Shown: in pieces, positions 854 to 39,173 of the stretch
Layout of the letters: each line of letters begins with the position of its first letter
Position numbering within the stretch: position 1 is the first letter of the stretch
Source: Chromobacterium paludis
Lineage (GTDB): Bacteria; Pseudomonadota; Gammaproteobacteria; Burkholderiales; Chromobacteriaceae
Assembly: GCF_008275125.1 (NCBI RefSeq)
Contig: NZ_CP043473.1
Location: forward strand, 1 to 64,000
DNA length: 64,000 nucleotides
Direction of reading: 5' to 3'
Program-made: the position numbers and the translations under genes
Notes under the pieces: generated by a model
Databases searched by the model: none
Told to the model about the DNA's origin: nothing
Seen by the model: only the letters and a program-made list of their open reading frames with translations

Positions 854-2522
<1,669 letters not shown>

Positions 2523-2607: not shown

Positions 2608-2619
2608 TATTAAACGATG

Positions 2620-7054: not shown

Positions 7055-7168
7055 GAAGTTGTAGCGCCGTAATGACAATTTATTTGCATGGATGCTTCAA
7101 GTCCCTACTAGTAATCGGGTAAAATCTGGCGGTTTAGGGCTCGATTTCCACGATTGAGGATGATTGCA

Positions 7169-7753: not shown

Positions 7754-7767
7754 GCTGAGGGCGAAAA

Positions 7768-19250: not shown

Positions 19251-21293
19251 ATGTGGTTAGGTAAACTGACTCTGGACGCGATTCCGTACCATGAGCCCAT
19301 CATCATGGGGGCGCTTGGCGGCGCCGGCCTGATCGGGCTGATGCTGTTCGCGCTCATCACCAAGTTCGGTAAGTGGGGCTATCTCTGGAAAGAGTGGCTG
19401 ACTTCGGTCGATCACAAGAAAATCGGCGTGATGTACATCATCGTCGCCATGATCATGCTGCTGCGCGGCTTCGCCGACGCGCTGATGATGCGTACCCAAT
19501 TGGCCGTCGCCACCGGCGGCAGCCACGGCATTTTCCCGCCGGAACACTATGATCAGATCTTCACCGCCCACGGCGTGATCATGATCATCTTCATGGCGAT
19601 GCCGTTCATGACCGGCCTGATGAACATCGTGGTGCCGCTGCAAATCGGCGCGCGCGACGTGGCCTTCCCCTTCCTGAACTCGCTGAGCTTCTGGCTGCTG
19701 GTTTCGGCCGTGATCCTGGTCAACCTGTCGCTGGGTGTGGGCAACTTCGCCCGCACCGGCTGGGTGGCCTATCCGCCGCTGGCCGAACTGGGCTTCAGTC
19801 CTGACGTGGGGGTGGATTACTACATCTGGGCCCTGCAGTTGTCAGGCCTAGGGACGACGCTGACGGCCATCAACTTCCTGGTGACCGTGATCAAGATGCG
19901 CGCCCCGGGCATGAAGCTGATGGAAATGCCGATCTTCACCTGGACCTGCACCTGGGCCAACGTGCTGATCGCCACCTCCTTCCCGATCCTGACCGGCGCC
20001 CTGGCCATGCTGACGCTGGACCGCTACCTCGACTTCCACTTCTTCACCGCGGAAGCGGGCGGCAACGCCATGATGTACCTGAACCTGTTCTGGGCCTGGG
20101 GCCACCCCGAGGTGTACATTCTGGTTCTGCCGGCCTTCGGCATTTTCTCGGAAGTGGTTTCCACTTTCGCCGGCAAGCGCCTGTTCGGCCACAAGTCCAT
20201 GATCTACGCCAGCGGCGCGATCTCCATCCTGGGTTTCATGGTTTGGCTGCACCACTTCTTCACCATGGGCTCCGGCGCCAATGTGAACGCCTTCTTCGGC
20301 ATCGCGACGATGATCATCTCGATCCCGACCGGCGTGAAGCTGTTCAACTGGCTGTTCACCATCTACAAGGGCCGCCTGCGCTTTGAAACCCCTATCCTGT
20401 GGACCCTGGGTTTCATGGTGACCTTCTCCATCGGCGGCATGACCGGCGTGCTGATGGCGGTGCCGGGCGCGGACTTTGTGCTGCACAACAGCCTGTTCCT
20501 GATCGCCCACTTCCATAACACCATCATCGGCGGCGCCGTGTTCGGCTATCTGGCCGGCTTCACCTTCTGGTTCCCCAAGGTGTTCGGCTTCAAGCTGGAG
20601 CCTAAGCTTGGCAAGGCCGCGTTCTGGTTCTGGCAGATCGGCTTCATGTTCGCCTTCATGCCGCTGTACGTGCTGGGCTTCATGGGCATGACCCGTCGCC
20701 TGAACTACACCACCAATCCGGAATACGAGCCGTGGCTGTATGTGGCCCTGTTCGGCGCGCTGCTGATCGCTTGCGGCATCGGCTGCCAGTTGCTGCAGAT
20801 CGTGGTCAGCGTGATCAAGCGCAACGAACTGAAGGACGAAACCGGCGACCCGTGGAACGGCCATACCCTGGAATGGTCCACTTCCTCCCCGGCGCCGTTC
20901 TACAACTTCGCCAAGCTGCCGCAGGTGCATGACATCGACGCCTTCACCGACATGAAGGAAAAGGGCGTGGCTTACGCGGTGCCGAAGTCCTACGAGCCTA
21001 TCCACATGCCGCGGAACACTTCGGCCGGCGTTTTCATCGGCGCCTTCGCCACGGTGTTCGGCTTTGCGATGATCTGGCACATCTGGTGGCTGGCCATCGT
21101 CGGTCTGCTGGGCATCATCGGCAGCATGCTGGCCCGCGCCTACGACAACAACCTGGACTACTACGTGCAGCCGGATGAAGTGGAAGCCATCGAGCGCGCC
21201 CGCTTCGAGAAGCTGGGCATCGATGTGGACAACTACACCGAGCGCGATCAGACGAAGCCGAAGAAGGCTGCCCGTCCGACCACGACCGCGTAA
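19251..21293 (+). CDS. cyoB: Cytochrome bo3 ubiquinol oxidase subunit I
   Basis: This is the catalytic heme-copper subunit, which reduces O2 to water and pumps protons. The 680-residue protein has the CuB/Tyr site [15 protein letters not shown], the HH pair in [11 protein letters not shown] and the low-spin heme ligand near [13 protein letters not shown]. It also has the quinol-binding residues of CyoB ([12 protein letters not shown] and TAHGVIMI). ATG 19251 is preferred over the in-frame TTG three bases earlier because of AAGGAG upstream. Length and order match E. coli CyoB. Confidence 0.97.
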
Positions 21294-23185: not shown

Positions 23186-23217
23186 ACGGGGAGTCGCGAA
23201 AGCGGCTCCCCGTTTTT
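23186..23217 (+). terminator. Rho-independent terminator of cyoABCDE
   Basis: ACGGGGAG pairs with CTCCCCGT, loop of about 12 bases, followed by TTTT. Confidence 0.85.
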
Positions 23218-23845
23218 CATGCGCGGCTGCCGCAGCCATCCGGCCATCCGTTCCCCGCACTTGCCATACGGGATGGCGCAGGGGAGGGCTCAAGGAGCGG
23301 CGACGTCTCCAGGCTGGCGCGTGTCGCTGGAGCCGGATGTTGATTTCCCGTCCTTCCTTTCCCGATTTTTCCCCTTCTTTGAATTCGCAGGCCGGCGCAT
23401 CGCGCCCTGCCGCGGCCCTGTCGCGCAATGGCATGACCTGTCCTAATTAACGGCCTGTTCGGGCCATTCCTGCCAATATTTTGCTGCTTTTGCGCAACAG
23501 TTAAGGCGATTGCCGCCATGCTTCGCGCCGAAGCCGCGCGCTGGAGAAGCGAAGAGCAAGCGGTAGCGGGTTCGAATTGGTATTGCTTCTCATTTTAAAT
23601 CAATGCCCGGCGCGCCTTGTCGCTGCGCGAGCATGCCCAAGGAATGGCGTCTAGCACAAGCCATGCCGCATGCCAAGTTTGTTCTGTGGATTGCTAATCA
23701 GGAAAATCAATATGCGATTGACATCGGCCATGATATTCATCAAACATTCAATGAATTTATTTATGGTTTGACTGGGATTGATCGAGATATTGATCGGTTT
23801 TCATCGAATGGATGTGCGCTTGTTTTTTTATCTGAGGAGTGTGTC
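23218..23845 (+). promoter_or_regulatory. Long leader region of the dithiolopyrrolone-like cluster
   Basis: I find no recognisable gene in these 628 bases. The last 200 bases are clearly AT-richer than their surroundings. They contain two direct ATTGATCG words 12 bases apart (23777-23784 and 23789-23796), a spacing near one helical turn that suits a dimeric regulator. An open frame joined in phase to the exporter gene covers 23603-23845, but it has no family resemblance and no ribosome site, so I treat it as leader. The promoter itself I could not place with confidence. Confidence 0.4.
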
Positions 23846-25261
23846 GTGAGTTCACAAGAGGGTGGGGCGCCTAACGCCCATGCTGCGCGGCAGCGCAGAG
23901 CTTTTTCCACATTGGCCATCGTGCAGGCGACGCTGATTTTCGCCATCACCTTGGTCGCGGTGCCGCTGCCCAATATCGGCAAGGAGTTTGGCCTGGACAC
24001 GGCGGCGCTGATTCTGGTGAATGCCGCTTATGGCCTGGCCTTCAGCGGCCTGCTGTTGTTTGGCGGCCGGCTGGCCGACCGTTTCGGCGGCAAGCCGGTC
24101 TTCATCGCGGGACTGTTGGTGTTTGGCGGCGCCTCGGCCGCCGCTGCGTTGTCGCCCAGCTTCCTCGTGCTGATCGCGATGCGCTTTCTGCAGGGCGTGG
24201 GCGCGTCCATGGTCGCGCCGGCTGCGCTGTCCTTGCTGCGCGGCGCTTTTCCGGAACCGGCGGCTTTCGGCCGCGCCATGGCGAGCTGGGGCAGCGTTTC
24301 CGTGCTGGGCGCCACGGCGGGCACGGTGATCTCTGGCGTGATGATCACTTGGCTGTCCTGGCGCTGGATGTTCATGGTGCCGGTGGCGGTCAGCGTCTTC
24401 GCCTTGCTGGTGCAGGGCGCCTGGCTGCCGGCCTCGCCTGAGCGGCGCGGGAGCGAAGGGTTGGACCTGTGGGGCGCGGTCCTGGCCACGGCCGGCATTT
24501 CGCTCTCCAGCTATGGCCTGATCCTGACCGGCGAAGCCGGCTGGCTGTCTCGCGGGGTGATGTTGCCGTTGCTGGTCGGCGTGGCCTTGCTGCTGGCTTT
24601 CTTCATGGTGGAGCGGCGCGCCGCCTCGCCGCTCTTGCCCCCCGGCTTCATCGCGCCGCGCAGGCTGGCAGGCCTGATAGGCGTGATGCTGGCGGCTGCC
24701 AGCATGGGCACGGTGTCTTTCCTGTGGTCGCTATACCTGCAGCAGGTGCGAGGCTGGACGCCGCTGTCGACCGCCCTGGGCTTTTTGCCCTATCTGCTGG
24801 TGCTGATCGCCTCCAGCCGCATCGCCGCTCCGCTGACCGGACGCCTGGGGGCCACCCGCTTGCTGCAGGGCGGCCTGGCGATAGGCGCCGTGGGCCTGGC
24901 GCTGTTGGCCGGGCTGGATCGGCACTCCGCCTATCTGACGGACCTGTTGCCGGGTCTGATCGTACTGCCCATCGGCACCGCGATGATGTTCGCAAGTTCA
25001 GCCGTCATCGCCACCAGCGATGTGCCGCCGCATCAGTCCGGCCTGGCGGGGGGCGTGATGAATACCGCCATGGAGCTGGGGCCGACCTTGGGCATGGCCA
25101 TCTTCATGTCGGTAGCCGCGTTGCGGACGGATGCGGTTGAAGGCTATGCCTGGGCGCTGTGGGCCGCTGCCGTCTCCTTCGTGGTGGCGGCGCTGTTGGT
25201 GGGCAGGCTGGCGCGCATGCGAGGCGTGTCCGAAGGCCAGCTGGCGACGCAGAAACTGTAG
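23846..25261 (+). CDS. MFS drug exporter (HlmH-like, DHA2/EmrB type)
   Basis: This 471-residue major-facilitator protein has about 14 hydrophobic segments. The DHA2 hallmarks are visible: AVPLPNIGKEFG in helix 1, GGRLADRFGGKPVF between helices 2 and 3, and MRFLQGVGASMVAPAALSLL (motif C region). The start is taken as GTG 23846 because GAGGAG lies 7 bases before it. The longer in-frame extension upstream has no family content. It is the first gene of the cysteine-NRPS cluster and is followed by the NRPS after 39 bases. The likely role is export of, and self-protection against, the cluster product. Confidence 0.88.
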   Translation: MSSQEGGAPNAHAARQRRAFSTLAIVQATLIFAITLVAVPLPNIGKEFGLDTAALILVNAAYGLAFSGLLLFGGRLADRFGGKPVFIAGLLVFGGASAAAALSPSFLVLIAMRFLQGVGASMVAPAALSLLRGAFPEPAAFGRAMASWGSVSVLGATAGTVISGVMITWLSWRWMFMVPVAVSVFALLVQGAWLPASPERRGSEGLDLWGAVLATAGISLSSYGLILTGEAGWLSRGVMLPLLVGVALLLAFFMVERRAASPLLPPGFIAPRRLAGLIGVMLAAASMGTVSFLWSLYLQQVRGWTPLSTALGFLPYLLVLIASSRIAAPLTGRLGATRLLQGGLAIGAVGLALLAGLDRHSAYLTDLLPGLIVLPIGTAMMFASSAVIATSDVPPHQSGLAGGVMNTAMELGPTLGMAIFMSVAALRTDAVEGYAWALWAAAVSFVVAALLVGRLARMRGVSEGQLATQKL

Positions 25262-25300
25262 GTTTCGCAGTTCAAGACAAAGCAATCACAAGGAGAACAC

Positions 25301-28300
25301 ATGCACACCATCATCGAGGCGATCCGAGCCTGCGGTTTGACGGCCATGGCAGGGGCCGAGCGGGACGATGAGCACGAAGCCGCCAGCGCGGAACAGATCC
25401 GCTTGCTGCTGCAAGGTGGTTTGCCGCGTGAGGACGCCGCTGCGGAGCCGATGCAGCGGGACGATGAGGCCTTCGCGCTGACCGATATCCAGTATGCCTA
25501 CCTGATAGGCCGCAACCCCGGCCTGGAGCTGGGGGGCATTGCCAGCGCTTTCTATCAGGAGTGGGAGGTGGAGGCGCTGGACCTGGCGCGCCTGGAGCAC
25601 GCCTTGGCCAGCACGGTGGAGCGCCACGCCGCGTTGCGGACGGCGATCCGCGATGGCGGCGAGCAAGCCGTGGCGGTGGCGGCGCCTAGCTGTCGCATAG
25701 CCTTGACCGACACGCGCGCCTGGGATGAGGCGGCGCGCACGCGTCATCTGGATGCGGAACGGCAGCGCATGCGCCATACCATGCTGCCTTTGAACCAGGC
25801 TTCGCCGTTTGAGATCCGGGCCTCCTTGCTGGAGGGGGGCGTGACCCGGCTGCATCTGTTGTTCGATCTGATGTTTCTGGATCTGCGCAGCGTGCGCATC
25901 ATCATGCGGGACTGGTGGCGCGCCTATTCCGGCCAGCCGCAGGCGGCCTTGCCGGCCCAGGCCTCCTTCGCCGGCTATCGCGCGGCGGAAGCGGCGCGGC
26001 AGGCCGGCCCCTGGGGGGCGCGCGATCGCCAATACTGGCTGAGCCGGCTGGACGCGATGAGCGCCGCGCCGGAGCTGCCGCTGGACACCTCCCCCGAGCA
26101 TCTGACGCCGCCGCTTACGGTTCGCGCCAGCCGCGAGTTGAGCGCGGACAAGCTGGCCGCCTTGCGCGGCGTGGCTGCCAGCAGGGGGCTGACCGCGGAG
26201 AGCCTGATGTTGGGCGCCTATGTGGAAACGCTGCGCCAGTGGTCCAAGCAGCAGGCGTTCACTTTGACGCTGACGACGTTTGGCCGCCGGCCGCACTTCG
26301 ATGGCGTAGCCGATATCGCGGGCAACTTTCTGCAACCGCTGCTGCTGCCGATCACCGCCGAGGCGGGCGAAAGCTTTGCCGAGCGGCTGGCCAAGGTGCA
26401 AACCGATTTGCTCTGCCACCGCTGGCATGCCGGTTACAGCGGCATCCAGTTGTTGCGCGAACAGGCGCGCCAACAGGGCCAGCGCGTATCCGGCTCGCCG
26501 GTGGTGTTCAGCAATATGCTGGACGCCGACCTGAACGAGCTGGTGGAGGAGGGCGGCTGGCCAGGCGCGCGCATGGTGTATGAACGCAACCAGACGCCGC
26601 AGGTGTGGCTGGAAAACCAGCTGACGCGAGACGGCGACATCCTGCGCGTGAACTGGAACCATGTGGATGGCCTGTTCCCGGCAGGCATGGTCGAGGACAT
26701 GCTCGATTGCTATATGGCCTTGTTGGCGCGCTGCCTTGGCGACGAGGGGGTGTGGACCACCCGCGGCGCGGTGACGGCGCTGCCGGCGGCGGACCTGGCG
26801 GAGCGCGAGTGCGCCAACGCCACGGAAACGCCGCTGCCGCTGGCCCTGCTGCATGAGCTGGTTCTGCAACGCGCCCGCAGCCAGGCCGACGCGGTGGCGG
26901 TGCAGCAGGGCGACGCCAGCATGAGCTTTGGCGAGCTGGCACGCCGCGCCGGCGCGATCGCGCAAGCCATCCGCAGCCAGACCGAGGTGAAGCCTGGCGA
27001 GATGATAGCGGTATCGTTGCCGCAAGGTCCGGAGCTGATCGCCGCCATTTTGGGCGCGCTGATTGCCGGCGGCGCCTATGTCGCGATAGACCCGACCTTG
27101 CCCGCCGAGCGCCGTCAGAGCCTGTTGCGCCGCTGCGCCGCGCGCGCGCTGCTGAGCCGCGGCGACATCCACCCGCAAGAAACGCACGCGGCGCTGCCGC
27201 GCATTGATGTGGAACGCGTGCCGGCAGGCGAGGCATGGCCGGAAGCGGCCTCGCTTCAGTCGCTGGATGATCTGGCCTATGTGATCTTCACCTCCGGCTC
27301 CACCGGCGAGCCCAAGGGCGTGATGATCAGTCACCGCAATGCCGCCAATACCGTGCTCGACATCAATCGCCGCTTCGGCGTGAGCCGTGACGACGCGGTG
27401 TTCTCGGTGGCGCCGGCCGGCTTCGATTTGTCCGTCTACGACTACTTCGGCGTGCTGGCGGCCGGCGGCCGCGTGGTGTTCCAGGATGTCGCCGGCGCGA
27501 GCGATCCGCAGGCATGGTGCCAGACGCTGATACAGCACCGGGTGACGATCTGGAACAGCGTGCCGGCGCCGGTCAAGGCGCTGGCCGATCGCTGCGGCGA
27601 TGCGCTGGCGCAGACCGCGCTGCGGCTGGTGTTGATGAGCGGGGACTGGATTCCCATCGACCTGCCTGGCCGGATACGCGAGTGCCTGCCTGCGGTGGAG
27701 GTGGTCAGCCTCGGCGGCGCCACCGAAGGCTCGATCTGGTCCATCTGCCACCCGATCGAGCGGGTGGACCCGTCTTGGAGCAGCATCCCCTACGGCAAGC
27801 CGCTGGCCAACCAGCGCTTCCATGTGCTGAACGACTGGCTGGCCCCATGCCCGAAGTGGGTGACCGGCGAGCTCTATATCGCGGGTTGCGGCGTGGCCCA
27901 GGGGTATCTGGCCGATGCCGAGAAGACCGCGCAACGCTTCATCGTCGATCCGCGCAGCGGCGAGCGCTTATATAAGACGGGCGATCTGGGCCGTTATCTG
28001 GACGACGGCGTGATCGAAATCCTGGGCCGCGAGGACAACCAGGTGAAGATCAACGGCTACCGGGTGGAGCTGGGCGAGGTCGAGGCCTGCCTGCTGGAAC
28101 ACCCGGAGGCCAATCATGTGGTGCTGGACGCGCCGCGCCACGCCAAAACCGGGCAGCGCCACCTGGTCGCCTATGTGGCGGCGAAGACCCCGCCGCAGGG
28201 CGACGCCGGTTGGCAGAAGCTGCTGGATGGGCTGCGCGAGCTGGCGAGCAAGCAGCTGCCATCTTATATGGTGCCCAGCTACCTGGTGCCGGTGGACGAG

Positions 28301-28648
28301 ATGCCGCTGACCGCCAACGGCAAGATCAACCGCGCGGCCTTGCCGCAGCCGTGGCAGGAGCGCGACGAGGCGGAGGCCGGCGCCGAGCCGGCGGGCGAGC
28401 TGGAAAACGAGCTGCTGGCGCTGTGGCGCAAGCAACTCCGGCATGAAGACTTCGGCGTGACCGACGGCTTTTTCGATATCGGCGGCGATTCGCTGCACGC
28501 GGTGGGCTTGCTCAGCGCCTTGCGCGACCGCTACGCGCTGACGCCGGAGCGTGAGCAGGACGTGATCGAAGGCCTGTTCATGAACGCCAGCATACGCGAC
28601 TTCGCCAAGCTGCTGGATGGCCTGGCCGTTGTGGCGGAGGAGGCGTGA
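25301..28648 (+). CDS. Cysteine-activating NRPS, Cy-A-PCP (HlmE-like)
   Basis: This is a 1115-residue single-module synthetase. The heterocyclisation domain (about 55-470) opens ALTDIQYAYLIGR and holds the Cy signature DxxxxDxxS as D189, D194 and S197. The adenylation domain (about 515-1030) has FTSGSTGEPKG at 663. The pocket residues D709, L710, Y713, N752, L778, S780, L804, I812 and W813 spell the established cysteine code. The PCP (about 1035-1110) has GGDSLHA with Ser1064 for phosphopantetheine. There is no thioesterase domain. The same Cy-A-T architecture builds the Cys-Cys core in holomycin and thiolutin pathways (HlmE/HolA). Its stop overlaps the next start by one base. Confidence 0.95.
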   Translation: MHTIIEAIRACGLTAMAGAERDDEHEAASAEQIRLLLQGGLPREDAAAEPMQRDDEAFALTDIQYAYLIGRNPGLELGGIASAFYQEWEVEALDLARLEHALASTVERHAALRTAIRDGGEQAVAVAAPSCRIALTDTRAWDEAARTRHLDAERQRMRHTMLPLNQASPFEIRASLLEGGVTRLHLLFDLMFLDLRSVRIIMRDWWRAYSGQPQAALPAQASFAGYRAAEAARQAGPWGARDRQYWLSRLDAMSAAPELPLDTSPEHLTPPLTVRASRELSADKLAALRGVAASRGLTAESLMLGAYVETLRQWSKQQAFTLTLTTFGRRPHFDGVADIAGNFLQPLLLPITAEAGESFAERLAKVQTDLLCHRWHAGYSGIQLLREQARQQGQRVSGSPVVFSNMLDADLNELVEEGGWPGARMVYERNQTPQVWLENQLTRDGDILRVNWNHVDGLFPAGMVEDMLDCYMALLARCLGDEGVWTTRGAVTALPAADLAERECANATETPLPLALLHELVLQRARSQADAVAVQQGDASMSFGELARRAGAIAQAIRSQTEVKPGEMIAVSLPQGPELIAAILGALIAGGAYVAIDPTLPAERRQSLLRRCAARALLSRGDIHPQETHAALPRIDVERVPAGEAWPEAASLQSLDDLAYVIFTSGSTGEPKGVMISHRNAANTVLDINRRFGVSRDDAVFSVAPAGFDLSVYDYFGVLAAGGRVVFQDVAGASDPQAWCQTLIQHRVTIWNSVPAPVKALADRCGDALAQTALRLVLMSGDWIPIDLPGRIRECLPAVEVVSLGGATEGSIWSICHPIERVDPSWSSIPYGKPLANQRFHVLNDWLAPCPKWVTGELYIAGCGVAQGYLADAEKTAQRFIVDPRSGERLYKTGDLGRYLDDGVIEILGREDNQVKINGYRVELGEVEACLLEHPEANHVVLDAPRHAKTGQRHLVAYVAAKTPPQGDAGWQKLLDGLRELASKQLPSYMVPSYLVPVDEMPLTANGKINRAALPQPWQERDEAEAGAEPAGELENELLALWRKQLRHEDFGVTDGFFDIGGDSLHAVGLLSALRDRYALTPEREQDVIEGLFMNASIRDFAKLLDGLAVVAEEA

Positions 28649-30231
28649 TGGAGAACGCGACGATGACGAGCGGCGGCGAGTTCGACTTCATCGTGGTCGG
28701 CGGCGGGTCTGCCGGCTGCGTGATGGCGGCGCGGCTGTCGGAAAACGGCAAGCACCGCGTGCTGCTGCTGGAGGCCGGGCCGGCCTCCGATGCGGCGCGC
28801 GAAGACAGCCCGTTGCGCGACGCTTCGCGCCTGGTGCTGAGCGGCTACAACTGGGATTACGAAGCTCATGTGCGCGGCGACGGCGAGCGCGGCGGCCGGC
28901 GCAAGCCCTTTGCCTACAGCCTGGGCAAGGTGATGGGCGGATCGTCCGCCATCAATGGCGCGGTGGCGCTCCGGGCCTTCCCCAGCGACTTCGCCGCCTG
29001 GGAGAGCATGGGGTGTCCGACCTGGTCTTGGGACAAGGTACTGCCGTGGTTCCGCAAGATGGAGCATGACGTGGACCGCGCCGACGAATGGCACGGCAGC
29101 GATGGCCCGCTGCGGCTCAGACGGCCGGCCACGGGCGAGATCCATCCGCTGGACCAGGCGTTCTCCTTGTCTTGCCAGCGCCAGGGCATGCCTTATGCCG
29201 ATGACCTGAACTTGGGCGAAGACCCGGCGGTGGGGCTGGTGCCGGCCAATGTGCGCGGCCAGTCCGAGCGGATGGACGTCTATCGCTCCTATCTGCAGCC
29301 GGTCCAGGGGCGCGCCAATCTGACCGTGAAAACCGGCGCCGAGGCGGCCGCGATCGTGTTCGAGGACCGCCGCGCCTGCGGCGTGGACGCAGTGGTGGAT
29401 GGGCAGCGGCTGCGCTACGCGGCAAGGCGAGTGGTGTTGTGCGCCGGCGCGGTCGGCACGGCGGCCTTGCTGCAGCGCTCCGGGGTGGGCGATCCGGCGC
29501 AACTGAGGGAGGCCGGCATTCCGCTGCGCGCGGCCTTGCCGGCGGTGGGCCGCAACCTGACCGATCACGCCTCTTTGGTGCTGTGGGCCTTGCCCAAGCC
29601 CGGCGTATGCGTGCGGGGCCTGCCATGGCGCCAAGTGGCCGCCCGCGCCTGCAGCGGTTACGACGACAAGGTGGACGTGCAGATCGGCCTCTTGAACAAC
29701 GTGGCCAGCGAGACCGTGCCCAGCTTCCAGGAGCGGGTGGCTTACCCGATGCTGGTGGGCGGCTCGGTCATGCTGATGCGGCCCAGGGCGCTGGGCGCGG
29801 TGCAGGCGCTGAGCGCGGATCCGGCCCAGCGGCCGCGGATAGACCTGCCCTTGAGCGACGACGAGGACATCGCCAGGCTGGCCGGCGGGGTGCGGCTACT
29901 ATGGCGCGTGCTGAAGGATCCGCTGGTGTCCTGCTATCTGGACGGCGTGCAGTTCTGGTCCGAATCCATGATAGGCAACCCGGCGGTGGTGGCCAGCGCG
30001 GTGCGCAACCTGGTCAATCCCGGCTGGCATGCGGTCGGCACGGTGAGAATGGGGCCGGCATCGGATCCCGCCTGCGCGGCGGGGGAGGACGGCGCGGTGC
30101 ACGGGCTGGACGGCTTGACGGTGGCGGATGCCTCGCTGTTCCCGACCATTCCATCCATGCCCACCAATCTGACCACCATCATGTTGGCGGAGCGGCTGGC
30201 TGCGACGCTGCTGGACAAGGAGCGAGCATGA
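28648..30231 (+). CDS. GMC-family FAD oxidoreductase (HlmD-like)
   Basis: This 527-residue flavoenzyme of the glucose-methanol-choline family has an N-terminal dinucleotide fold FIVVGGGSAGCVMAARLSE, then LLLEAGP and GGSSAINGAVALR. C-terminally it has GWHAVGTVRMG with the catalytic-type histidine and SMPTNLTTIMLAERLA. ATG 28648 shares a base with the NRPS stop and has GGAGGAGG upstream, so translation is coupled. In dithiolopyrrolone clusters a GMC enzyme is one of the flavoproteins that oxidise the carrier-bound Cys-Cys intermediate. Its substrate here is inferred from the neighbours. Confidence 0.92.
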   Translation: MENATMTSGGEFDFIVVGGGSAGCVMAARLSENGKHRVLLLEAGPASDAAREDSPLRDASRLVLSGYNWDYEAHVRGDGERGGRRKPFAYSLGKVMGGSSAINGAVALRAFPSDFAAWESMGCPTWSWDKVLPWFRKMEHDVDRADEWHGSDGPLRLRRPATGEIHPLDQAFSLSCQRQGMPYADDLNLGEDPAVGLVPANVRGQSERMDVYRSYLQPVQGRANLTVKTGAEAAAIVFEDRRACGVDAVVDGQRLRYAARRVVLCAGAVGTAALLQRSGVGDPAQLREAGIPLRAALPAVGRNLTDHASLVLWALPKPGVCVRGLPWRQVAARACSGYDDKVDVQIGLLNNVASETVPSFQERVAYPMLVGGSVMLMRPRALGAVQALSADPAQRPRIDLPLSDDEDIARLAGGVRLLWRVLKDPLVSCYLDGVQFWSESMIGNPAVVASAVRNLVNPGWHAVGTVRMGPASDPACAAGEDGAVHGLDGLTVADASLFPTIPSMPTNLTTIMLAERLAATLLDKERA

Positions 30232-30962
30232 CGGCGCAGCCTCGTCGAGTGGTATACGCCTTTCCGCACGCCGGCGGCTCCGCCGCCCTGTATCGAGCCT
30301 GGCAGGCCGAGTCCTGGGATGACGGCTTGCTGGTGCCGGTGGAAATGCCCGGCCGCGGTTTGCGCATCCGCATGCCGGCCATGGAAAGCCTGCCCGAACT
30401 GACGGCCTGGCTGGCCGATCAACTGTGCGCGGACCTGCGCGAGAGGCAGGCGCAGGGCGTGGCAGAGTGGGCGACCTTCGGCCATAGCTTCGGCGGCGTG
30501 CTCAGCGTGATCGTCGCCAGCGAAATGAGCCGGCGCCATGGACTGACGCCGCGTTTCAGCGTGGTGTCGGCCTCGATCGCGCCCGCCATCCAGCCGGACG
30601 ACGAGCGGCATCTGCTCAGCGACGAGCAGATCCTGGCCGTGGCCAGGGCCGACCAAGGCACGCCGGAGGCGGTGCTGCGAGAGCCGGCGCTGGCCGGCAG
30701 GGTGGTGGCCCAGCTGCGCTGCGATTACCGCTTGCGCCGGCAATTTTTGGCGCACCGCGGGCTGAGGGTGCCGCAGCCACTTCACTTGATAGGCGCCGAG
30801 CAAGACCCGCATGTCAGCTTGACGCAGTTGCGCGCCTGGGAACATCACAGCGAGGCCAGCGCCGCGCTGCACACCATACCCGGCGATCACTTCGCCATTT
30901 ACCAGCATTGGCCGCGGGTACGCGACATTCTGTCGTTGTGTCCGCAGGAGTCAACCATATGA
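30228..30962 (+). CDS. Type II thioesterase (HlmC-like)
   Basis: This 244-residue alpha/beta-hydrolase of the GrsT/TEII family opens VVYAFPHAGGSAALYRAW, with the nucleophile in FGHSFGGVL (Ser about 87). The Asp region is HLIGAEQDPHVS and the catalytic His is in IPGDHFAIY. Such enzymes free blocked or finished chains from the PCP. It overlaps the GMC gene by four bases and the acyl-CoA dehydrogenase gene by four. As the NRPS lacks its own TE, this enzyme may release the product. Confidence 0.93.
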   Translation: MTAQPRRVVYAFPHAGGSAALYRAWQAESWDDGLLVPVEMPGRGLRIRMPAMESLPELTAWLADQLCADLRERQAQGVAEWATFGHSFGGVLSVIVASEMSRRHGLTPRFSVVSASIAPAIQPDDERHLLSDEQILAVARADQGTPEAVLREPALAGRVVAQLRCDYRLRRQFLAHRGLRVPQPLHLIGAEQDPHVSLTQLRAWEHHSEASAALHTIPGDHFAIYQHWPRVRDILSLCPQESTI

Positions 30963-32089
30963 GTACGACACAGTTGGACGAATTTCGGCGGCATTGCCGC
31001 GATTTCCTGGCGCAAGCCGCCACGCCGCGGATGGCTCAGTGGGAGGCGCAAGGACGGGTGGACCGTGACTTCTGGGAGCAGGCCGGCGCGGCTGGCCTGC
31101 TGGGCATCGGCGTTAGCCGCGAGCTGGGTGGCCGCGGCGAGAGCGACTTCCGTTACCCCATGATCCTGATCGAGGAACTGATCCGCGCGGGCATGAGCGT
31201 GCCGGGGCTGGTGTCGCACAACGATGTCATCGCCAGCTACATCCTGACCCTGGGCACGCCGGAGCAGAAGCAACGCTGGTTGCCGGCGCTGTGCTCCGGC
31301 CGCGCCATCGGCGCGATCGCGATTACCGAGCCGCACGCCGGTTCCGACGCCAACGAGCTGACGACCCGCGCCGAGCGCCAGGGCGACCGCTATGAGCTGA
31401 ATGGCAGCAAGGCCTATATCACCAACGGCCATAACGCCGATCTGGTGGTGGTGGCGGTGAAGACGGCGGATCCCCAGCGCGGCCAGGGCATCAGCCTGCT
31501 GGTGGCGGAGCGAGGCGCGGAGGGTTTCAGCCGCGGGCCGTTGCGCGCCAAGCTGGGCTGGCATGCCAGCGATACCACCGATCTGTTCTTCGAGCATTGC
31601 CTGCTGCCGGCGGACAACCTGCTGGGGCGGGAGAACCTAGGCAGCTTCTATTTCATGACGGCGATGATACGCGAGCGGCTGAGCATCTCCACCGTGGCGG
31701 TGGCCAGCATGGAAACGGCCTTGGAGCAAACCCTGGCCTATGCCAAGGCGAGAACCGTGTTCGGCCAGCCCGTGGGCAGCTTCCAGCACAACCGCTTCAC
31801 GCTGGCCAAGCTGGATACCGAGATCCGCATCGCCCGCCTGTATCTGGACGACGCCATCACGCGTTTCAATGCCGGCGCGCTCAGCCTGGTGGACGCCGCG
31901 AGGCTCAAGCTATGGGTGACCGAACTGCAGAGCAAGGTCGCGGATCGCTGCCTGCAACTGCACGGCGCTGCCGGCTACATGGGCGAGTCCGGCATTGGCA
32001 AGAACTGGGTCAACAGCCGGGTGCAGCAGATTTACGGCGGCACCAGCGAAGTGCTGCAGGAGCTGATCAGCAAATCGATGGGGCTGTGA
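30959..32089 (+). CDS. Acyl-CoA dehydrogenase-like flavoenzyme (HlmB-like)
   Basis: This 376-residue protein has the full acyl-CoA dehydrogenase layout: an N-terminal helical part, the FAD/substrate motif IGAIAITEPHAGSDANEL, GSKAYITNG, the C-terminal RTVFGQPVGSFQHNRF, and the end segment QQIYGGTSEVLQELISK. In natural-product clusters such enzymes oxidise carrier-bound amino acids, as in pyrrole formation. In the holomycin pathway one is paired with the GMC enzyme. It is coupled to the upstream thioesterase by an ATGA overlap. The direct substrate cannot be read from sequence. Confidence 0.93.
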   Translation: MSTTQLDEFRRHCRDFLAQAATPRMAQWEAQGRVDRDFWEQAGAAGLLGIGVSRELGGRGESDFRYPMILIEELIRAGMSVPGLVSHNDVIASYILTLGTPEQKQRWLPALCSGRAIGAIAITEPHAGSDANELTTRAERQGDRYELNGSKAYITNGHNADLVVVAVKTADPQRGQGISLLVAERGAEGFSRGPLRAKLGWHASDTTDLFFEHCLLPADNLLGRENLGSFYFMTAMIRERLSISTVAVASMETALEQTLAYAKARTVFGQPVGSFQHNRFTLAKLDTEIRIARLYLDDAITRFNAGALSLVDAARLKLWVTELQSKVADRCLQLHGAAGYMGESGIGKNWVNSRVQQIYGGTSEVLQELISKSMGL

Positions 32090-32119
32090 AACGTTGTCGC
32101 AGCCGAAAAGGAGGCGGGC

Positions 32120-32986
32120 ATGACGGACGCTGGTAAGCCGACGCTTTGGCATGGCCGGCCGGGCAGCCTGGCGGAGTGGAGCGTGTCGCTGCAATGGGCC
32201 GAGCTTGAGGGCTGGGACCTGGGGGCGGGCGACGCCGAATGCTTTTTCGAGGCGGATCCGCAAGGCTTCTATCTGGGGTTTGTCGACGGCGAGCCGGCGG
32301 CGGCCATCTCGGTGGTCAATCTGGATGATGGCTACACCCATATGGGCCATTACCTGACGGCGCCGGCGCGCCGGGGCCAAGGTTGGGCGCGCCGCCTGTG
32401 GGAGCAGGCCATCTTGCATGCCGGCACCCGCACCCTGGGCGGCGACGGCATGCCGGCGCAGCTGCATAACTATGCGAAATGGGGATATGAAAGCCATTAC
32501 CGCACCTTGCGCATGAGCGGCGCGCCGACGGCGCGCCTGCCTGCGGCGCCGGGCATCGAGCCGGTATCGGCTGCCAACCTGGAGGAAGCCTGCGGCTATG
32601 ACCAGCAAACCTTGGGCGTGCGGCGCCACGCCATGCTGAGGGGCTGGTTCCTGGGGGCTGGCCGGCGCGGCTGGATCCGACGCGGGGCGGACGGCGGCAT
32701 CGATGGCTTGATCGGGGCGCGGCTGTCCAGCCGAGGTTATCGGCTGGGCCCCTTTTACGCCGAGAACGAAGACGCTAGCCAGACGCTGCTGCGCCAAGCG
32801 CTGGCGTTTGTGCCAGCGGGCGCGGTCTTGACGCTGGATGTGCCGGAAAGCGCGGATGCCTTGATCCGGCAACTGCGGGCGTTGGGGCTGCGCGAGATTT
32901 TTCATACCTTCCGGATTTACCGCGGCGCGCCGCCGCGCGCTCGGGTCGAGCGGATACAGGCCATTGCCTCGCTGGAGCTGGGCTGA
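32120..32986 (+). CDS. GNAT-family acyltransferase (candidate N-acyltransferase of the cluster)
   Basis: This 288-residue protein contains a GNAT domain in its first half. The acetyl-CoA pyrophosphate loop is seen as APARRGQGWARRLWEQAI, preceded by GEPAAAISVVNLDDGYTHMGHYLT. The second half, to HTFRIYRGAPP, resembles the C-terminal extension of two-domain GNAT proteins. AAGGAGG precedes the ATG. In dithiolopyrrolone pathways the last step is N-acylation of the free holothin amine (HlmA role), so I propose that role here by position. A role in self-resistance by acetylation is the main alternative. Confidence 0.75.
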   Translation: MTDAGKPTLWHGRPGSLAEWSVSLQWAELEGWDLGAGDAECFFEADPQGFYLGFVDGEPAAAISVVNLDDGYTHMGHYLTAPARRGQGWARRLWEQAILHAGTRTLGGDGMPAQLHNYAKWGYESHYRTLRMSGAPTARLPAAPGIEPVSAANLEEACGYDQQTLGVRRHAMLRGWFLGAGRRGWIRRGADGGIDGLIGARLSSRGYRLGPFYAENEDASQTLLRQALAFVPAGAVLTLDVPESADALIRQLRALGLREIFHTFRIYRGAPPRARVERIQAIASLELG

Positions 32987-33014
32987 GCTTTTACCAATTT
33001 TCAAGGAGTGATTC

Positions 33015-33533
33015 ATGGATCAGGTTATGGATTCGCCGCTGGCATGCGCGGGCGATCTGGATGAGCAGGCCTTGTTCGATCTTCCCACCCTGTTTGAATG
33101 GATGGGCGGCCGGGAAGCCTTGCGCAATTTGACGGAAACCTTTCACCCCAAGGTATTGAAGGATCCGCTGTTGGCCGAGATGTTCCGCGAGGTGCCGGAC
33201 TTCCACGCCGAGCATCTGGCCATGTGGTTTGAGGAAGTGTTGGGCGGCGAGCCGCGCTACACCAATGAGCGCGGCGGCTTCAAGACCATGATAGGCATGC
33301 ATCGCGGCCGCTCCATCCAACCGGAGCAGCGCAAGCGCTGGGTGGAACTGCTGATGGAGACCGCCGACGAGGTGGGCTTGCCCAGCGATCCTGAGTTCCG
33401 TTCGGCCTTTGCCGCCTATGTCGAGTGGGGCTCGCGCCGCGCGCAGGCCAACTCGCAGCCCGATGCGCCGCCCTCGCGGCGCGAGACCGTGCCGCGCTGG
33501 GGCTGGGGCGAGGCCAAGCCGGGCACGCCTTGA
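33015..33533 (+). CDS. Group 2 truncated hemoglobin (HlmG-like)
   Basis: This is a 172-residue globin of the trHbO type. It opens LPTLFEWMGGREALRNLTETF and has the helix-E/F region HAEHLAMWFEEVLGG. It also has MHRGRSIQPEQRKRWVELLMETADEVGLP, with the proximal-His neighbourhood and the conserved G-helix tryptophan, and ends with the family tail PRWGWGEAKPGTP. A globin of unassigned function is a regular member of holomycin and thiolutin clusters. It may supply O2 or remove peroxide for the flavoenzymes. AAGGAG precedes the ATG. Confidence 0.85.
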   Translation: MDQVMDSPLACAGDLDEQALFDLPTLFEWMGGREALRNLTETFHPKVLKDPLLAEMFREVPDFHAEHLAMWFEEVLGGEPRYTNERGGFKTMIGMHRGRSIQPEQRKRWVELLMETADEVGLPSDPEFRSAFAAYVEWGSRRAQANSQPDAPPSRRETVPRWGWGEAKPGTP

Positions 33534-33605
33534 GCGGGCGCATTGTCGGGAAGAGCCGCGCGGCGGCTTGAGAGGCTGGACGCGCACTAACGCCATGGTA
33601 ATGAA

Positions 33606-34415
33606 ATGAAACGCGAACCCATCAAATTAAACGCAGGCATGATAGGCGACATGGAGGCCTTCTGGCGCCGCATGCGCTGTGGCATCGACGATCTGGAGCG
33701 ATGCGAGCCCATGGTCTTCAGTTGCGTGCAGGCGCTGCTGAGCGAGGCGGGCTGCTTTCCTTCCGCCCTGGCCTGCATGCTATGCGAGCAGTTGTTCCAC
33801 GGGCAGCCGGCGAGCGGACCGCTCAGACGCATGCTGCTGGATACCTTGCTCAGCCATCCGGATATCTGCCAGGCCGCCATGCGCGACTTGGCGGCATCCT
33901 GTGAGCGCGATCCCGCGTCGGACTGCGCCCTGCAAGTCTTCCTGTTCAGCAAGGGCTTTGTCGCCCTGCAGGCGCATCGGGTGGCGCACAAGCTGTGGCG
34001 CGATCGCGAGCAACGCTTCTCGGCCCAGCTGCTGCAGTTGCGCACGTCGATGGCTTGCGGCGTGGACATCCACCCGGCAGCCAGGCTGGGTTGCGGCCTT
34101 TTCCTGGACCATGCCACGGGTTTGGTGATAGGCGAGACCGCGGTGGTGGAAGACGATGTGTCGATACTGCACGACGTGACGCTGGGCGGCACAGGCAAAC
34201 AGCGCGGCGATCGCCATCCCAAGGTCAGGCGCGGGGCGACGCTGTACGCCGGCGCCAAGATACTGGGCAATATCGAGGTGGGGGCCGGCGCGGTCGTGGC
34301 GGCGGGCAGCGTGGTGCTGAAGGATGTGCCGGCCTACGCCACCGTGGCGGGCGTGCCCGCCCGCATTGTCAAGGCGGGGATCATGCCGCCGGCTTTGTCC
34401 GCGCAATTGGCCTAG
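33606..34415 (+). CDS. cysE: Serine O-acetyltransferase (CysE type)
   Basis: SAT makes O-acetylserine, the carbon skeleton for cysteine. The 269-residue protein has the helical N-terminal SATase domain and the left-handed beta-helix of hexapeptide repeats. The motif run DIHPAARLGCG, FLDHATGLVIGETAVV, LHDVTLGGTGK and HPKVRRGATLYAGAKILGNI is characteristic and includes the catalytic His and Asp. A dedicated copy inside a cysteine-consuming NRPS cluster would raise precursor supply. Whether it is insensitive to cysteine feedback cannot be told from sequence alone. Confidence 0.9.
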   Translation: MKREPIKLNAGMIGDMEAFWRRMRCGIDDLERCEPMVFSCVQALLSEAGCFPSALACMLCEQLFHGQPASGPLRRMLLDTLLSHPDICQAAMRDLAASCERDPASDCALQVFLFSKGFVALQAHRVAHKLWRDREQRFSAQLLQLRTSMACGVDIHPAARLGCGLFLDHATGLVIGETAVVEDDVSILHDVTLGGTGKQRGDRHPKVRRGATLYAGAKILGNIEVGAGAVVAAGSVVLKDVPAYATVAGVPARIVKAGIMPPALSAQLA

Positions 34416-34448
34416 CGCCTGGAACGATACGATGAAAAGGAAACACCA

Positions 34449-35021
34449 ATGCAATTGAAGCCAGCAACGGAAGGCCGGCGGCGCATTTTGCTGGGCGCTT
34501 GCGGCTCCGTGGACATTCTGACCCTGCCGCGATATCTGTCGGCGATCAAGACCGGCATAGACTGTGAGCTGACCGTGTTGATGACGAGCAGCGCCCAGGC
34601 TTTTCTGCCGGCTGCCAGCGTGGGCTTGTATGCGGATAGGGTGATAGCGGGAGAGCGGCCGGAGGACTGGCCGACCGATAAGCCCTCTCGCATCGTTGCC
34701 GACCACGACCTGCTGGTTGTGCTGCCCGCCACCGCGCATATGTTGGGGACTGCGGCGCAGGGCGCGGCGCCGAACCGGCTGGCCACGGTCATCCTGGCCT
34801 CCAATTTCCCGGTGCTGTTTTTTCCGGTGATGGGCGCGGTCATGTGGGAAAAGCCGGCCGTGCAGCGCAATGTGCGTCAGCTGCGAGAGGATGGTTACCA
34901 AGTGGTGGAGCCGGTATGGCATGAGAACTACGACGTGTCGCTGGGGCGGATGGTGGGCCATCCCTCGCTGCCCTTGCCGGAACAGGCGGTTGAGCTGATG
35001 CGCGCCAACCTGCGCCGCTGA
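34449..35021 (+). CDS. HFCD-family flavoprotein cysteine decarboxylase (HlmF-like)
   Basis: This 190-residue flavoprotein of the EpiD/Dfp (PPC decarboxylase) family has the FMN-site start RRILLGACGSVDI, the PASANT-like loop LPATAHMLG and the MNxxMW-type motif seen as VMGAVMWEKPAVQRN. These enzymes oxidatively decarboxylate cysteine to an enethiol. In holomycin biosynthesis HlmF does this on the Cys-derived intermediate. The CoaB ligase half of bifunctional Dfp is absent, which argues against coenzyme A synthesis. It is the last gene of the operon and is followed by a strong terminator. Confidence 0.9.
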   Translation: MQLKPATEGRRRILLGACGSVDILTLPRYLSAIKTGIDCELTVLMTSSAQAFLPAASVGLYADRVIAGERPEDWPTDKPSRIVADHDLLVVLPATAHMLGTAAQGAAPNRLATVILASNFPVLFFPVMGAVMWEKPAVQRNVRQLREDGYQVVEPVWHENYDVSLGRMVGHPSLPLPEQAVELMRANLRR

Positions 35022-35030
35022 GCGCAGGAC

Positions 35031-35060
35031 AAAAAAACCGGCGGACACCCGCCGGTTTTT
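35031..35060 (+). terminator. Rho-independent terminator of the NRPS cluster
   Basis: Seven A, then CCGGCGG pairing with CCGCCGG around ACAC, then five T. The symmetry means it may also stop transcription of the convergent DUF2938 gene. Confidence 0.93.
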
Positions 35061-35083
35061 CATTTGCGCCCGCCGCGCGGGGC

Positions 35084-35578
35084 TTACAGCAACCGGGCCA
35101 GCAACAGGGCGGCGAGGTAGAGGCCGACGCCGAAGGACGCGTGCGCGGACAGGCTGCGCAGACGGGCCACATTGGGCTGCGGCGTTTTGCTGGCGGCGAT
35201 GCCCGCGCCCAGGCCGGGCTGCAAAATGAAAAATGGCGCGGCCACGGTGAGCAAGCCGAATCCCAAAGCGGGCAGCAGCGTCGGCGCGATGCGCCACTCC
35301 GGCCCGCACCAGGCCAGCAGCATGGCCGCGAACACGATGCCTATGCCGTAATGCAGCGCCCAGCCTATCGGCGTTTCGCCGGCCACCGGCTCCGCCTTGG
35401 CGATATTCTCGTGGCAAAAGCGTCCGCGCAGCAGATGGCCGCTCCAGCGGCCCACCATGGCGTAGTTCAGCGAGGGAATGTTGAAAAAACGGCGCAGGAA
35501 CCAGGCCCAAAGGTCCATGACCAGCGTTGCGCCTATGCCTAGCGCCAGGGCATGAGTGAAAAAATCTGCAGTCATCAC
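35084..35578 (-). CDS. DUF2938 membrane protein
   Basis: This 164-residue protein has four to five hydrophobic helices. It opens FFTHALALGIGATLVMDLWAWFLRRFF, the DUF2938 signature, followed by WALHYGIGIVFAAMLLAW and APFFILQPGLGAGIAASKTP. The family has no known function. The gene is divergent from an ArsR-rhodanese regulator and convergent with the end of the NRPS operon. A gene beside such a regulator is often its target, so a role in sulfur or thiol handling is possible but unproven. Confidence 0.85.
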   Translation of the reverse strand: MMTADFFTHALALGIGATLVMDLWAWFLRRFFNIPSLNYAMVGRWSGHLLRGRFCHENIAKAEPVAGETPIGWALHYGIGIVFAAMLLAWCGPEWRIAPTLLPALGFGLLTVAAPFFILQPGLGAGIAASKTPQPNVARLRSLSAHASFGVGLYLAALLLARLL

Positions 35579-35713
35579 GGTTTCATCCTTAGTGGGTTAT
35601 TCAGGTGCTTGGCGCCCAATGCATCGCGTCTGATGCTCGCGGCGCGGATTTCAGATATGCTGGCCATGCAACATTCAATTTTTTTATTTAATGATGAATT
35701 GATTGGTTTGTCT

Positions 35714-36343
35714 ATGTCAATATCTGAAATGCATTTAAGGGGCGCCAGGCTGAGCGACTTGGCCGATCTGGCCAAGACTCTGGGCAACAGTCATCGCCTC
35801 CTGCTGCTGGAACACATCGCCGAGGGCGAAAAGACGGTGGAGGCGCTGTCCGACCTGGCCGGCTTGTCGGTGGCGAATGCTTCCCAGCATTTGCAGCAGC
35901 TCAAACGCAGCGGCTTTGTGCAGTCGCGGCGCGAGGGCAAGAATGTGCTGTACCGGCTGGGATCGGGGCCGATCGCCGCCTTGCTGGCCGCGCTGCGCGC
36001 CTGCGCCGAGCATAATCATTCGGAAATCCGCGCCTTGATCGCCGACAGCTTGTGGCAGCAGGACAAGCTTGAGGCGATTTCGCGCGAAGAGCTGCTGCAG
36101 CGCATGCAGGAAACCGAGGTCGTGTTGCTGGACGTGCGCTCAGAAGCCGAGTACGCCGCAGGCCACCTGCCCGGGGCCATCAATATCCCGCTGGACGCGT
36201 TGGAGCAACGCCTGGCGGAAGTGCCGCGCGACCAAGAAGTGGTGGCTTACTGCCGCGGCAATTACTGCGCTTTGTCGAGCAAGGCGGTTGCCATTCTGCG
36301 TGCGCTGGGGCGCAATGCGCGGCAATTGCAGGGCGGCATGTGA
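35714..36343 (+). CDS. ArsR-family regulator fused to a rhodanese domain
   Basis: This is a 209-residue two-domain protein. The ArsR winged helix (about 10-95) includes LAKTLGNSHRLLLLEHIAEGEKTVEALSDL and the recognition region LSVANASQHLQQLKRSGFV. The rhodanese domain (about 120-209) has VLLDVRSEAEYAAGHLPGAINIP and the active loop VAYCRGNYCALSS with two cysteines. ATG 35714 is chosen because the ArsR fold starts directly after it. The longer frame to 35552 is probably leader. Such fusions are thought to sense reactive sulfur or metal and are typically divergent from their target, here DUF2938. It overlaps the PPTase start by one base. Confidence 0.9.
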   Translation: MSISEMHLRGARLSDLADLAKTLGNSHRLLLLEHIAEGEKTVEALSDLAGLSVANASQHLQQLKRSGFVQSRREGKNVLYRLGSGPIAALLAALRACAEHNHSEIRALIADSLWQQDKLEAISREELLQRMQETEVVLLDVRSEAEYAAGHLPGAINIPLDALEQRLAEVPRDQEVVAYCRGNYCALSSKAVAILRALGRNARQLQGGM

Positions 36344-37155
36344 TGCCAGATCGCTCGTCCTGTTTGCGCGATGGGCTGGCTTTGGCCTGGGCGGGGAAAC
36401 TGGCGGATTGCTGGCTGCCGCCGCCGCATGCCCTGGCCGATGGCGCCTGCGCGGGTATTGCCCTGGCAAAGCTGGAGCAGGCTTTGTCCGGGATGGAGCT
36501 GGCCGCCTGGCTGCCGACGGAACTGGCGCGCGCGGCGCGCAAACGCCAGCTGTCTTTTCTGGGCGGGCGGCTGTGCGCCGCGCGCGCCTTGGAGGCCTTG
36601 GCCGTGGCTGATGCGGCAGTGGGGCGCGCCGTGGACGGCTTGCCGCTGTGGCCGACCGGCATGCTCGGCACCCTCACCCATCATGCCGCGGCGGCCTATG
36701 CGGCCGTTGCGCCGGCATCGGCTTATGCCGCGCTGGGCATGGATAGCGAGCGCTTGGCCAGGGACGGCGCGGCGGAAGCCATCCGCGCCGTGTGCTGCAC
36801 GGAGGCCGAACACGCGCGCTGGCTGGCTCGGCGCGAAGACACATTGGTCGAGACGCTGATCTTTTCCGCCAAGGAGGCCGGCTACAAGGCCATTCATCGC
36901 TTGGTGAAGCGATTTGTCGGTTTTGCCGAGTTCGAGGTCACCGCCTTGGACTGGGCCGCGGGCCGTCTGCAACTGTCGCCTGCCGCGGCTAGCGGTCTGC
37001 AGGGCGTGATGCGTCCGTTCGAGGTTCGTTTTCATTGCGCCGACGGCGAAGTGCATACCCTGGTGGCGGAGCGGCAGACGCTCTTCGCGGCGGAGGACGG
37101 GCGCGTATCCGGCATGGCGGCATCCCTTTGCCCGGCGCGGGACCTGGCGGGATAA
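36343..37155 (+). CDS. 4'-phosphopantetheinyl transferase (EntD/Sfp type)
   Basis: This 270-residue enzyme transfers phosphopantetheine from CoA to carrier proteins. Visible motifs are LTHHAAAAYAAVAP, ALGMDSERLA (Mg-binding Asp), and the signature IFSAKEAGYKAIHRLVKRFVGF, the K-E-x3-K-x variant of the family. ATG 36343 overlaps the regulator stop. A GTG three bases earlier is less likely. Being 1.3 kb from the NRPS it is the likely activator of PCP Ser1064, though it may serve other synthetases of the cell as well. Confidence 0.9.
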   Translation: MPDRSSCLRDGLALAWAGKLADCWLPPPHALADGACAGIALAKLEQALSGMELAAWLPTELARAARKRQLSFLGGRLCAARALEALAVADAAVGRAVDGLPLWPTGMLGTLTHHAAAAYAAVAPASAYAALGMDSERLARDGAAEAIRAVCCTEAEHARWLARREDTLVETLIFSAKEAGYKAIHRLVKRFVGFAEFEVTALDWAAGRLQLSPAAASGLQGVMRPFEVRFHCADGEVHTLVAERQTLFAAEDGRVSGMAASLCPARDLAG

Positions 37156-37180
37156 AAAATGCCCGCGGCAGGGCGCGGGC
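37154..37180 (-). terminator. Rho-independent terminator of groESL2
   Basis: On the minus strand GCCCGCG pairs with CGCGGGC around CCCTGC and is followed by ATTTTTT. It lies 31 bases after the groEL2 stop. Confidence 0.85.
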
Positions 37181-37210
37181 CAAGGAGTGAAAGAGGACCA
37201 GGTTGGCGGA

Positions 37211-39173
<1,963 letters not shown>

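Follow-up and report, generated by a model that had tools for sequence, protein, structure and literature searches.

A candidate dithiolopyrrolone biosynthetic cluster in Chromobacterium paludis and the DUF2938/ArsR-rhodanese gene pair linked to it

Does Chromobacterium paludis carry a complete pathway for a dithiolopyrrolone antibiotic, and which genes would regulate it and protect the producer? The question is raised by a locus within positions 1 to 64,000 of contig NZ_CP043473.1 (assembly GCF_008275125.1), a stretch of 64,000 nucleotides, hereafter the window, that forms the start of the single 4.28 Mb contig. A first-pass annotation, made from the letters alone, had placed there, at 23846–35021, nine co-directional genes of a holomycin/thiolutin-type pathway. 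We conclude, with a probability of roughly 0.9, that a Chromobacterium species has gained a complete dithiolopyrrolone (pyrrothine) cluster, together with the pathway and the linked regulation proposed below. The genes are as follows, percentages being protein identities to the thiomarinol plasmid pTML1 unless otherwise stated:

23846–25261, + strand: major facilitator superfamily (MFS) exporter, HlmH role; 48% identical to the Yersinia ruckeri MFS protein over a 292-residue fragment
25301–28648, + strand: non-ribosomal peptide synthetase (NRPS) with cyclization (Cy), adenylation (A) and peptidyl carrier protein (PCP) domains, HolA/HlmE role, code DLYNLSLIW, Cys612; 51%, and placed by a tree
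28645–30231, + strand: GMC flavin oxidoreductase, HolB/HlmD role; 56%
30228–30962, + strand: stand-alone thioesterase (TE) with the motif GHSFG, HolC/HlmC role; 43%
30959–32089, + strand: acyl-CoA dehydrogenase (ACAD)-like flavoenzyme, HolD/HlmB role; 62%, and placed by a tree
32120–32986, + strand: GNAT N-acyltransferase, HolE/HlmA role; 46%, on a long branch with Chromobacterium alticapitis
33015–33533, + strand: truncated globin, HolF/HlmG; 71%
33606–34415, + strand: extra serine O-acetyltransferase (CysE), presumed to supply cysteine
34449–35021, + strand: flavoprotein resembling phosphopantothenoylcysteine (PPC) decarboxylase, HolG/HlmF role; 70%; nearest solved structure by sequence MrsD
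35084–35578, − strand: DUF2938 protein (PF11158, E 1e-60), predicted all-helical; a candidate self-protection gene by its linkage
35714–36343, + strand: ArsR-rhodanese regulator with CRGxYC (C180, C185), from Pfam domains, a palindrome and a cysteine alignment
36340–37155, + strand: phosphopantetheinyl transferase (PPTase; PF17837/PF01648), which may prime the PCP; two relatives have a homologue at this position but not the cluster

The nine open reading frames (ORFs) between 23846 and 35021 are all open over their full length and all on the + strand, and their Pfam domains (in order MFS_1; Condensation, AMP-binding and PP-binding; GMC_oxred; Thioesterase; Acyl-CoA_dh; GNAT; Bac_globin; SATase_N and Hexapep; Flavoprotein) bear out the functions first assigned to them. 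The start codons of the GMC, TE and ACAD genes (28645, 30228 and 30959) each overlap the stop of the gene before, as had been noted for the run from NRPS to ACAD, and the MFS gene plausibly begins with GTG at 23846, directly preceded by GAGGAG. The first-pass annotation needs correction in the bounds and in the label that it gave. The unit reaches past 35021 to 36343, because the next two genes, for DUF2938 and ArsR-rhodanese (35084–36343), are linked to such clusters; and the label thiolutin-type is too wide, because no methyltransferase domain, such as an N-methyltransferase would have, was found by Pfam among the unit's genes, to which that search was confined.

The gene set had also been equated with that of the known holomycin and hol pathways, which holds for the seven hol genes of pTML1 (Pseudoalteromonas sp. 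SANK 73390), CysE being foreign to the known set. Among 2598 records matched by the NRPS in a protein search of a plasmid collection, pTML1 was the top match (49.9% over 97% of the query). All seven hol genes were matched, in the order NRPS, GMC, TE, ACAD, GNAT, globin and flavoprotein, which is that of the window without MFS and CysE; the GMC enzyme and the flavoprotein were compared by identity only. A DUF2938 homologue (51%) lies ~6 kb upstream of the hol block, which contains no CysE gene; no ArsR-rhodanese match was found on the plasmid. Seven proteins of the hom cluster of Y. ruckeri are 43–71% identical to those of the window, and this cluster shares the MFS gene and a DUF2938/ArsR-rhodanese pair with palindromes, but there the MFS gene is divergent from the NRPS gene and CysE does not occur in the stretch examined. 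The six genes shared with a Streptomyces finlayi plasmid are 41–57% identical. Xenorhabdus (xenorhabdin) clusters hold the NRPSs nearest to that of the window after C. alticapitis, and the clusters that were examined share the pair and the palindromes, but CysE is not in the stretches examined and their GNATs form a separate clade. For the hlm cluster of Streptomyces clavuligerus the correspondence to HlmA–H is function for function, taken from a table in a 2013 review (PMC3826145) and not from sequence. As far as the sections of that review on these clusters go, the hlm cluster additionally has HlmI, a free condensation domain and a second TE, the pTML1 hol genes are linked to a pseudomonic acid polyketide synthase (PKS), and gene disruptions tie the Y. 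ruckeri cluster to holomycin and that of pTML1 to thiomarinol (PMC3826145).

The NRPS code DLYNLSLIW, which we take to be a cysteine code, is identical in three of six out-group NRPSs, and thus points to cysteine rather than to dithiolopyrrolones. A more specific mark comes from thiolutin synthesis, for which a 2023 study, in the passage concerned, describes a dithiolopyrrolone-specific cysteine ~15 residues past motif A2 that is essential to load the second cysteine (PMC10134970). The window NRPS carries this extra A-domain cysteine as Cys612. It is present in 45 of the 46 dithiolopyrrolone-type NRPSs compared (window, pTML1, S. finlayi and 43 GTDB loci), the remaining one having Ser, and in none of the six others, which form the out-group.

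The phylogenetic check proposed with the first-pass annotation was made for NRPS and ACAD. The same 46 rows were split from the six others in the NRPS tree at a Shimodaira–Hasegawa-like approximate likelihood ratio test (SH-aLRT) value of 100, and the window and C. alticapitis fell inside a 24-row Gram-negative dithiolopyrrolone clade (SH-aLRT 100) with Y. ruckeri and pTML1; this tree of 52 rows was made by a quick method and has long out-group branches. In the ACAD tree, the window groups with C. alticapitis and the genome G035, of another genus, at 100, inside a 24-row set at 100, whose members were not listed and whose number is also that of the Gram-negative rows; with nine of 46 inner branches starred among 50 rows and out-group branches of up to 10, too distant to be informative, it says little about the out-group. 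Few proteins of the set are less conserved than the GNAT (its best reference outside Chromobacterium is pTML1, at 46%), and with that of C. alticapitis it sits on a long branch (1.06) of a tree that yielded no prediction of the acyl group.

To see how the cluster is distributed, GTDB species genomes were scanned with a profile of the flavoprotein, which gave 73 loci, the closest being that of C. alticapitis (91%). A dithiolopyrrolone-type NRPS is present in the stretch examined at 43 loci (22 Gram-negative, 21 actinobacterial) and absent from that stretch at 30. The 22 Gram-negative loci all have GMC, globin and flavoprotein, with TE and ACAD in 21 and GNAT in 20; CysE occurs in one (C. alticapitis) and in none of the 21 actinobacterial stretches, with a partial match in G035. 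A second CysE-like gene of the window genome, at 3744091, is 47% identical to that of the cluster. Within the family, three of 61 genomes have a flavoprotein above 90%: the window genome, C. alticapitis (G042) and G035 (94%), where the core proteins are 88–95% identical, the MFS protein only 57–59%, GNAT aligns over its C-terminal third only and CysE partially, at 45%. In Photorhabdus asymbiotica (L030) the cluster looks decayed, with GMC shortened, no match to TE and ACAD, and DUF2938 in pieces. Literature searches, mainly of open-access papers and mostly at listing level, turned up no description of such a cluster from Chromobacterium.

Comparison of the site 3' of cyoE delimits what was gained. 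The window genome and C. alticapitis carry the full set there, whereas a genome taken as C. sinusclupearum (G049) has DUF2938, ArsR-rhodanese and a PPTase homologue without hol genes, and in G043 a PPTase homologue comes immediately after cyoE, with neither cluster nor pair. A single in-frame stop interrupts the PPTase match in both G043 and G049, and the family scan of 61 genomes found no flavoprotein of this kind in C. sinusclupearum. G047 has none of the cluster, pair or PPTase genes within the 4.3 kb examined at the site. By the comparison of G043, G049, C. alticapitis and the window, the variable part begins past cyoE and extends as far as the ArsR-rhodanese gene, and the pair need not be accompanied by biosynthetic genes.

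The linkage of this pair to the clusters extends well beyond Chromobacterium. DUF2938 lies within ~10 kb of the NRPS gene, on the same stretch, at 17 of the 22 Gram-negative loci (L011, L014, L016–L020, L023–L032), and is adjoined by ArsR-rhodanese at 15 of the 17, the exceptions being L014 and L017. At the other five it is on another contig (L012, L021, L022, L033) or at the far end of a 99.8-kb contig (L015), where it would be near the cluster if that contig were a circular plasmid. DUF2938 was found in all 21 genomes that carry the 22 Gram-negative NRPS loci and a full-length ArsR-rhodanese in 17 of them; over all 31 genomes or records searched, DUF2938 is in 28, including 27 of 27 Gram-negative ones, the three misses being actinobacteria. 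The background in the order is 15 of 300 genomes, the window genome included and three by weak matches only. The actinobacterial loci have DUF2938 in none of 21 stretches and an ArsR-rhodanese match in two of 21. The pair also occurs without a dithiolopyrrolone-type NRPS in Iodobacter (L013), X. anantnagensis (L082) and a Photobacterium GJ3 replicon, where the best NRPS matches reach 32, 35 and 40% identity; GJ3 (one replicon searched) has a further partial stretch at 46%. At the Iodobacter locus (sp. BJB302), genes that by eye resemble Tn7-type transposition genes (900–9041) directly precede a flavoprotein/DUF2938/ArsR-rhodanese/MFS group, and on another contig of Xenorhabdus khoisanae (L146) ArsR-rhodanese, DUF2938 and MFS stand together, with no NRPS in the 18 kb examined. 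Elsewhere, stand-alone DUF2938 genes lie beside a MerR-like (by eye) or annotated helix-turn-helix/MerR regulator (L108, L110, L112, L115, L121, L123).

At six further loci, in Pseudovibrio, Tritonibacter and Epibacterium, DUF2938 lies beside a related flavoprotein, with no NRPS in the stretch. The annotated plasmid of Tritonibacter mobilis fits a tropodithietic acid cluster, the assignments of its other tropodithietic acid genes being in part provisional. In the section of PMC7497051 concerned, TdaF and tdaR1–R3 of the tropodithietic acid cluster are described. An identity of DUF2938 with TdaR1 was considered and rejected: the T. mobilis DUF2938 gene adjoins the flavoprotein gene, away from a trio (hypothetical/M23/gamma-glutamylcyclotransferase) that fits tdaR1–R3 as described there (PMC7497051).

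Intergenic sequences of the loci yielded a palindrome pattern, CATTCAAT-N6-ATTGAATG, that may connect the regulator with its own promoter and with that of the exporter. Two sites in the window are candidate ArsR-rhodanese operators:

23745–23766, + strand: candidate operator 5' of the MFS-hol operon; 3 mismatches, weak on its own
35672–35693, + strand: candidate operator in the divergent promoter between DUF2938 and ArsR-rhodanese; 1 mismatch

The window holds three sites at ≤3 mismatches vs 0.13 expected, a number reached by none of 100 shuffles. All 20 loci with the pair have a site at ≤4 mismatches (19 at ≤3), centred 18–32 nt before the estimated ArsR-rhodanese start, and the pattern had been fixed before 12 of them (L131–L142) were inspected. 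When each was shuffled 300 times, no site as good arose in 17 of the 20, one in 300 did in two, and 16 in 300 in L139. Sites at ≤3 mismatches also precede MFS genes in nine of the ten loci tested; the tenth, G035, has none at its MFS promoter (8 mismatches), where the estimated start is doubtful, and has a 4-mismatch site at L100:3294. The rhodanese CRGxYC cysteines are present in all 20 regulators, and no cysteine of the ArsR domain is common to all 20. We infer from these features that the ArsR-rhodanese protein may act as a repressor responsive to reactive sulfur or the antibiotic, and that the palindromes and the pair may form an antibiotic-responsive regulon for protection and export.

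DUF2938 itself is mentioned in a single paper of the literature searched, and a profile search found no relative among solved structures up to E 1. Its model is all-helical (predicted local distance difference test score, pLDDT, 91.6), and hydrophobic helices suggest a membrane location; D22, R44, W45, E68, W73, H76 and H146 are invariant in 42 sequences. Linkage, retention and shared control with the clusters suggest a protective role. According to the part of the 2013 review on Gram-negative clusters, these are without the dithiol oxidase HlmI, which neither the Y. ruckeri cluster nor that for thiomarinol possesses (PMC3826145). An S. finlayi-type reductase, which we take as HlmI-like without comparison to HlmI itself, is in the stretch at 18 of 21 actinobacterial loci and none of the 22 Gram-negative ones; the window genome has only a 27%, 39.7-bit match to it, and none among the unit's genes. 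We tentatively suggest, at somewhat below even odds, that DUF2938 is an unrecognised self-protection family for dithiol antibiotics, common to Gram-negative dithiolopyrrolone and tropodithietic-acid clusters, mostly controlled by an antibiotic-sensing ArsR-rhodanese that also switches the export operon (here export and biosynthesis) via the conserved palindrome, and holding the place of the actinobacterial HlmI-type dithiol oxidases.

In the proposed pathway, the PPTase would prime the NRPS, the A domain would load cysteine twice, with Cys612 holding the second, and the Cy domain would act with the ACAD and GMC flavoenzymes in the joining, cyclisation and oxidation of the Cys-Cys unit. Once the TE had released this unit, the HlmF-like flavoprotein would decarboxylate it to holothin, which the GNAT would acylate and the MFS protein export, the extra CysE feeding cysteine; the product would be an N-acyl holothin. 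The ArsR-rhodanese protein would keep the MFS-hol operon and its own divergent promoter, shared with DUF2938, repressed until its CRGxYC cysteines are acted on by the reactive dithiol/disulfide product, whereupon DUF2938 would give protection.

Several points weigh against this picture of a complete cluster with dedicated control. Full-length ArsR-rhodanese was found neither in the Vibrio, two Pseudoalteromonas and Alkalimonas producer genomes and on pTML1, nor in the three tropodithietic-acid-type genomes searched. The co-occurrence rates are uncorrected for kinship, and the 20 palindrome loci are not independent, since 12 are from Xenorhabdus or Photorhabdus. The operator before the window MFS gene is weak (3 of 16 positions mismatched; 5 of 300 shuffles as good), and the third window site, at 52216, is unrelated and regarded as chance. 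DUF2938 is a broad family of 3858 proteins, and none of 14 background DUF2938 loci has ArsR-rhodanese within ~1.5 kb, so that its role may be one in general redox stress. Finally, the acyl group cannot be predicted, because the GNAT is only 78% identical even to that of C. alticapitis.

The alternative that survives best, although we consider it unlikely, is that DUF2938 and ArsR-rhodanese are ordinary sulfur/redox-stress genes that stand at this site by chance and are unrelated to the antibiotic. It agrees with the wide occurrence of DUF2938 away from such clusters, in several cases next to a MerR-like regulator, with the four Gram-negative producers and pTML1 that lack ArsR-rhodanese, and with the pair of Saccharothrix algeriensis, which lies ~450 kb from the cluster there; chance would, however, have to account for linkage to the NRPS in several families, at 17 of 22 Gram-negative loci, for the six loci with a related flavoprotein, for a palindrome common to nine of ten MFS promoters, and for the absence of ArsR-rhodanese from all 14 background loci. 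Distinctly less probable is that, as in thiomarinol, the dithiolopyrrolone core is coupled to a different acid or modified in some other way instead of ending as a simple N-acyl holothin: the divergence of the GNAT, and pTML1 as its best reference outside Chromobacterium, would suit such a product, but the genes examined at 23603–38827, the only part of the window annotated systematically, include no recognisable PKS or acyl ligase. Silence or decay of the cluster in this strain is least probable of all: the losses in G035 (GNAT, part of CysE) and P. asymbiotica (GMC, TE, ACAD) would fit with it, but the nine window genes are open over their full length.

Around the unit, two hairpins may act as terminators:

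23186–23213, + strand: terminator-like hairpin 3' of cyoE, left of the variable part; 12-pair stem then TTTT, from a terminator scan that as a whole was no richer than shuffles
35038–35055, no strand assigned: hairpin flanked by an A-run and a T-run, a candidate terminator for both directions where the genes converge; counted by hand and absent from the scan list

Beyond the PPTase gene lies an ORF on the − strand (37211–38827) that matches Cpn60 (PF00118) and shares 81% of its DNA letters with a segment around 940–2440 of the window, as seen through the copy of that segment at the contig end; in C. alticapitis the gene after the PPTase is a different one. A PhzC/PhzF-like protein (PF02567) is encoded at 61965–62801. 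A second genomic copy of the ACAD start was rejected as a duplication, as the contig's last 33.8 kb (~4246000–4279774) repeat window 1–31339 with gaps, no mismatches and one ~2.4 kb insert; these are probably the untrimmed ends of a circular assembly. The insert of the terminal copy is missing from the window copy at 19740–19747, with an 8-base overlap, and may be a mobile element that only some of the cultured cells carried.

The cluster belongs to the already known dithiolopyrrolone kind, and with it Chromobacterium joins the lineages that have a full set, sister genomes lacking the cluster at this site or keeping only the pair there. Of wider interest is the conserved but uncharacterised DUF2938/ArsR-rhodanese pair, which, given the missing HlmI in the Gram-negative clusters covered by the review section (PMC3826145), is a concrete candidate for the means by which most Gram-negative producers detect their own product and withstand it; DUF2938 may perhaps play such a part in producers of tropodithietic acid as well.

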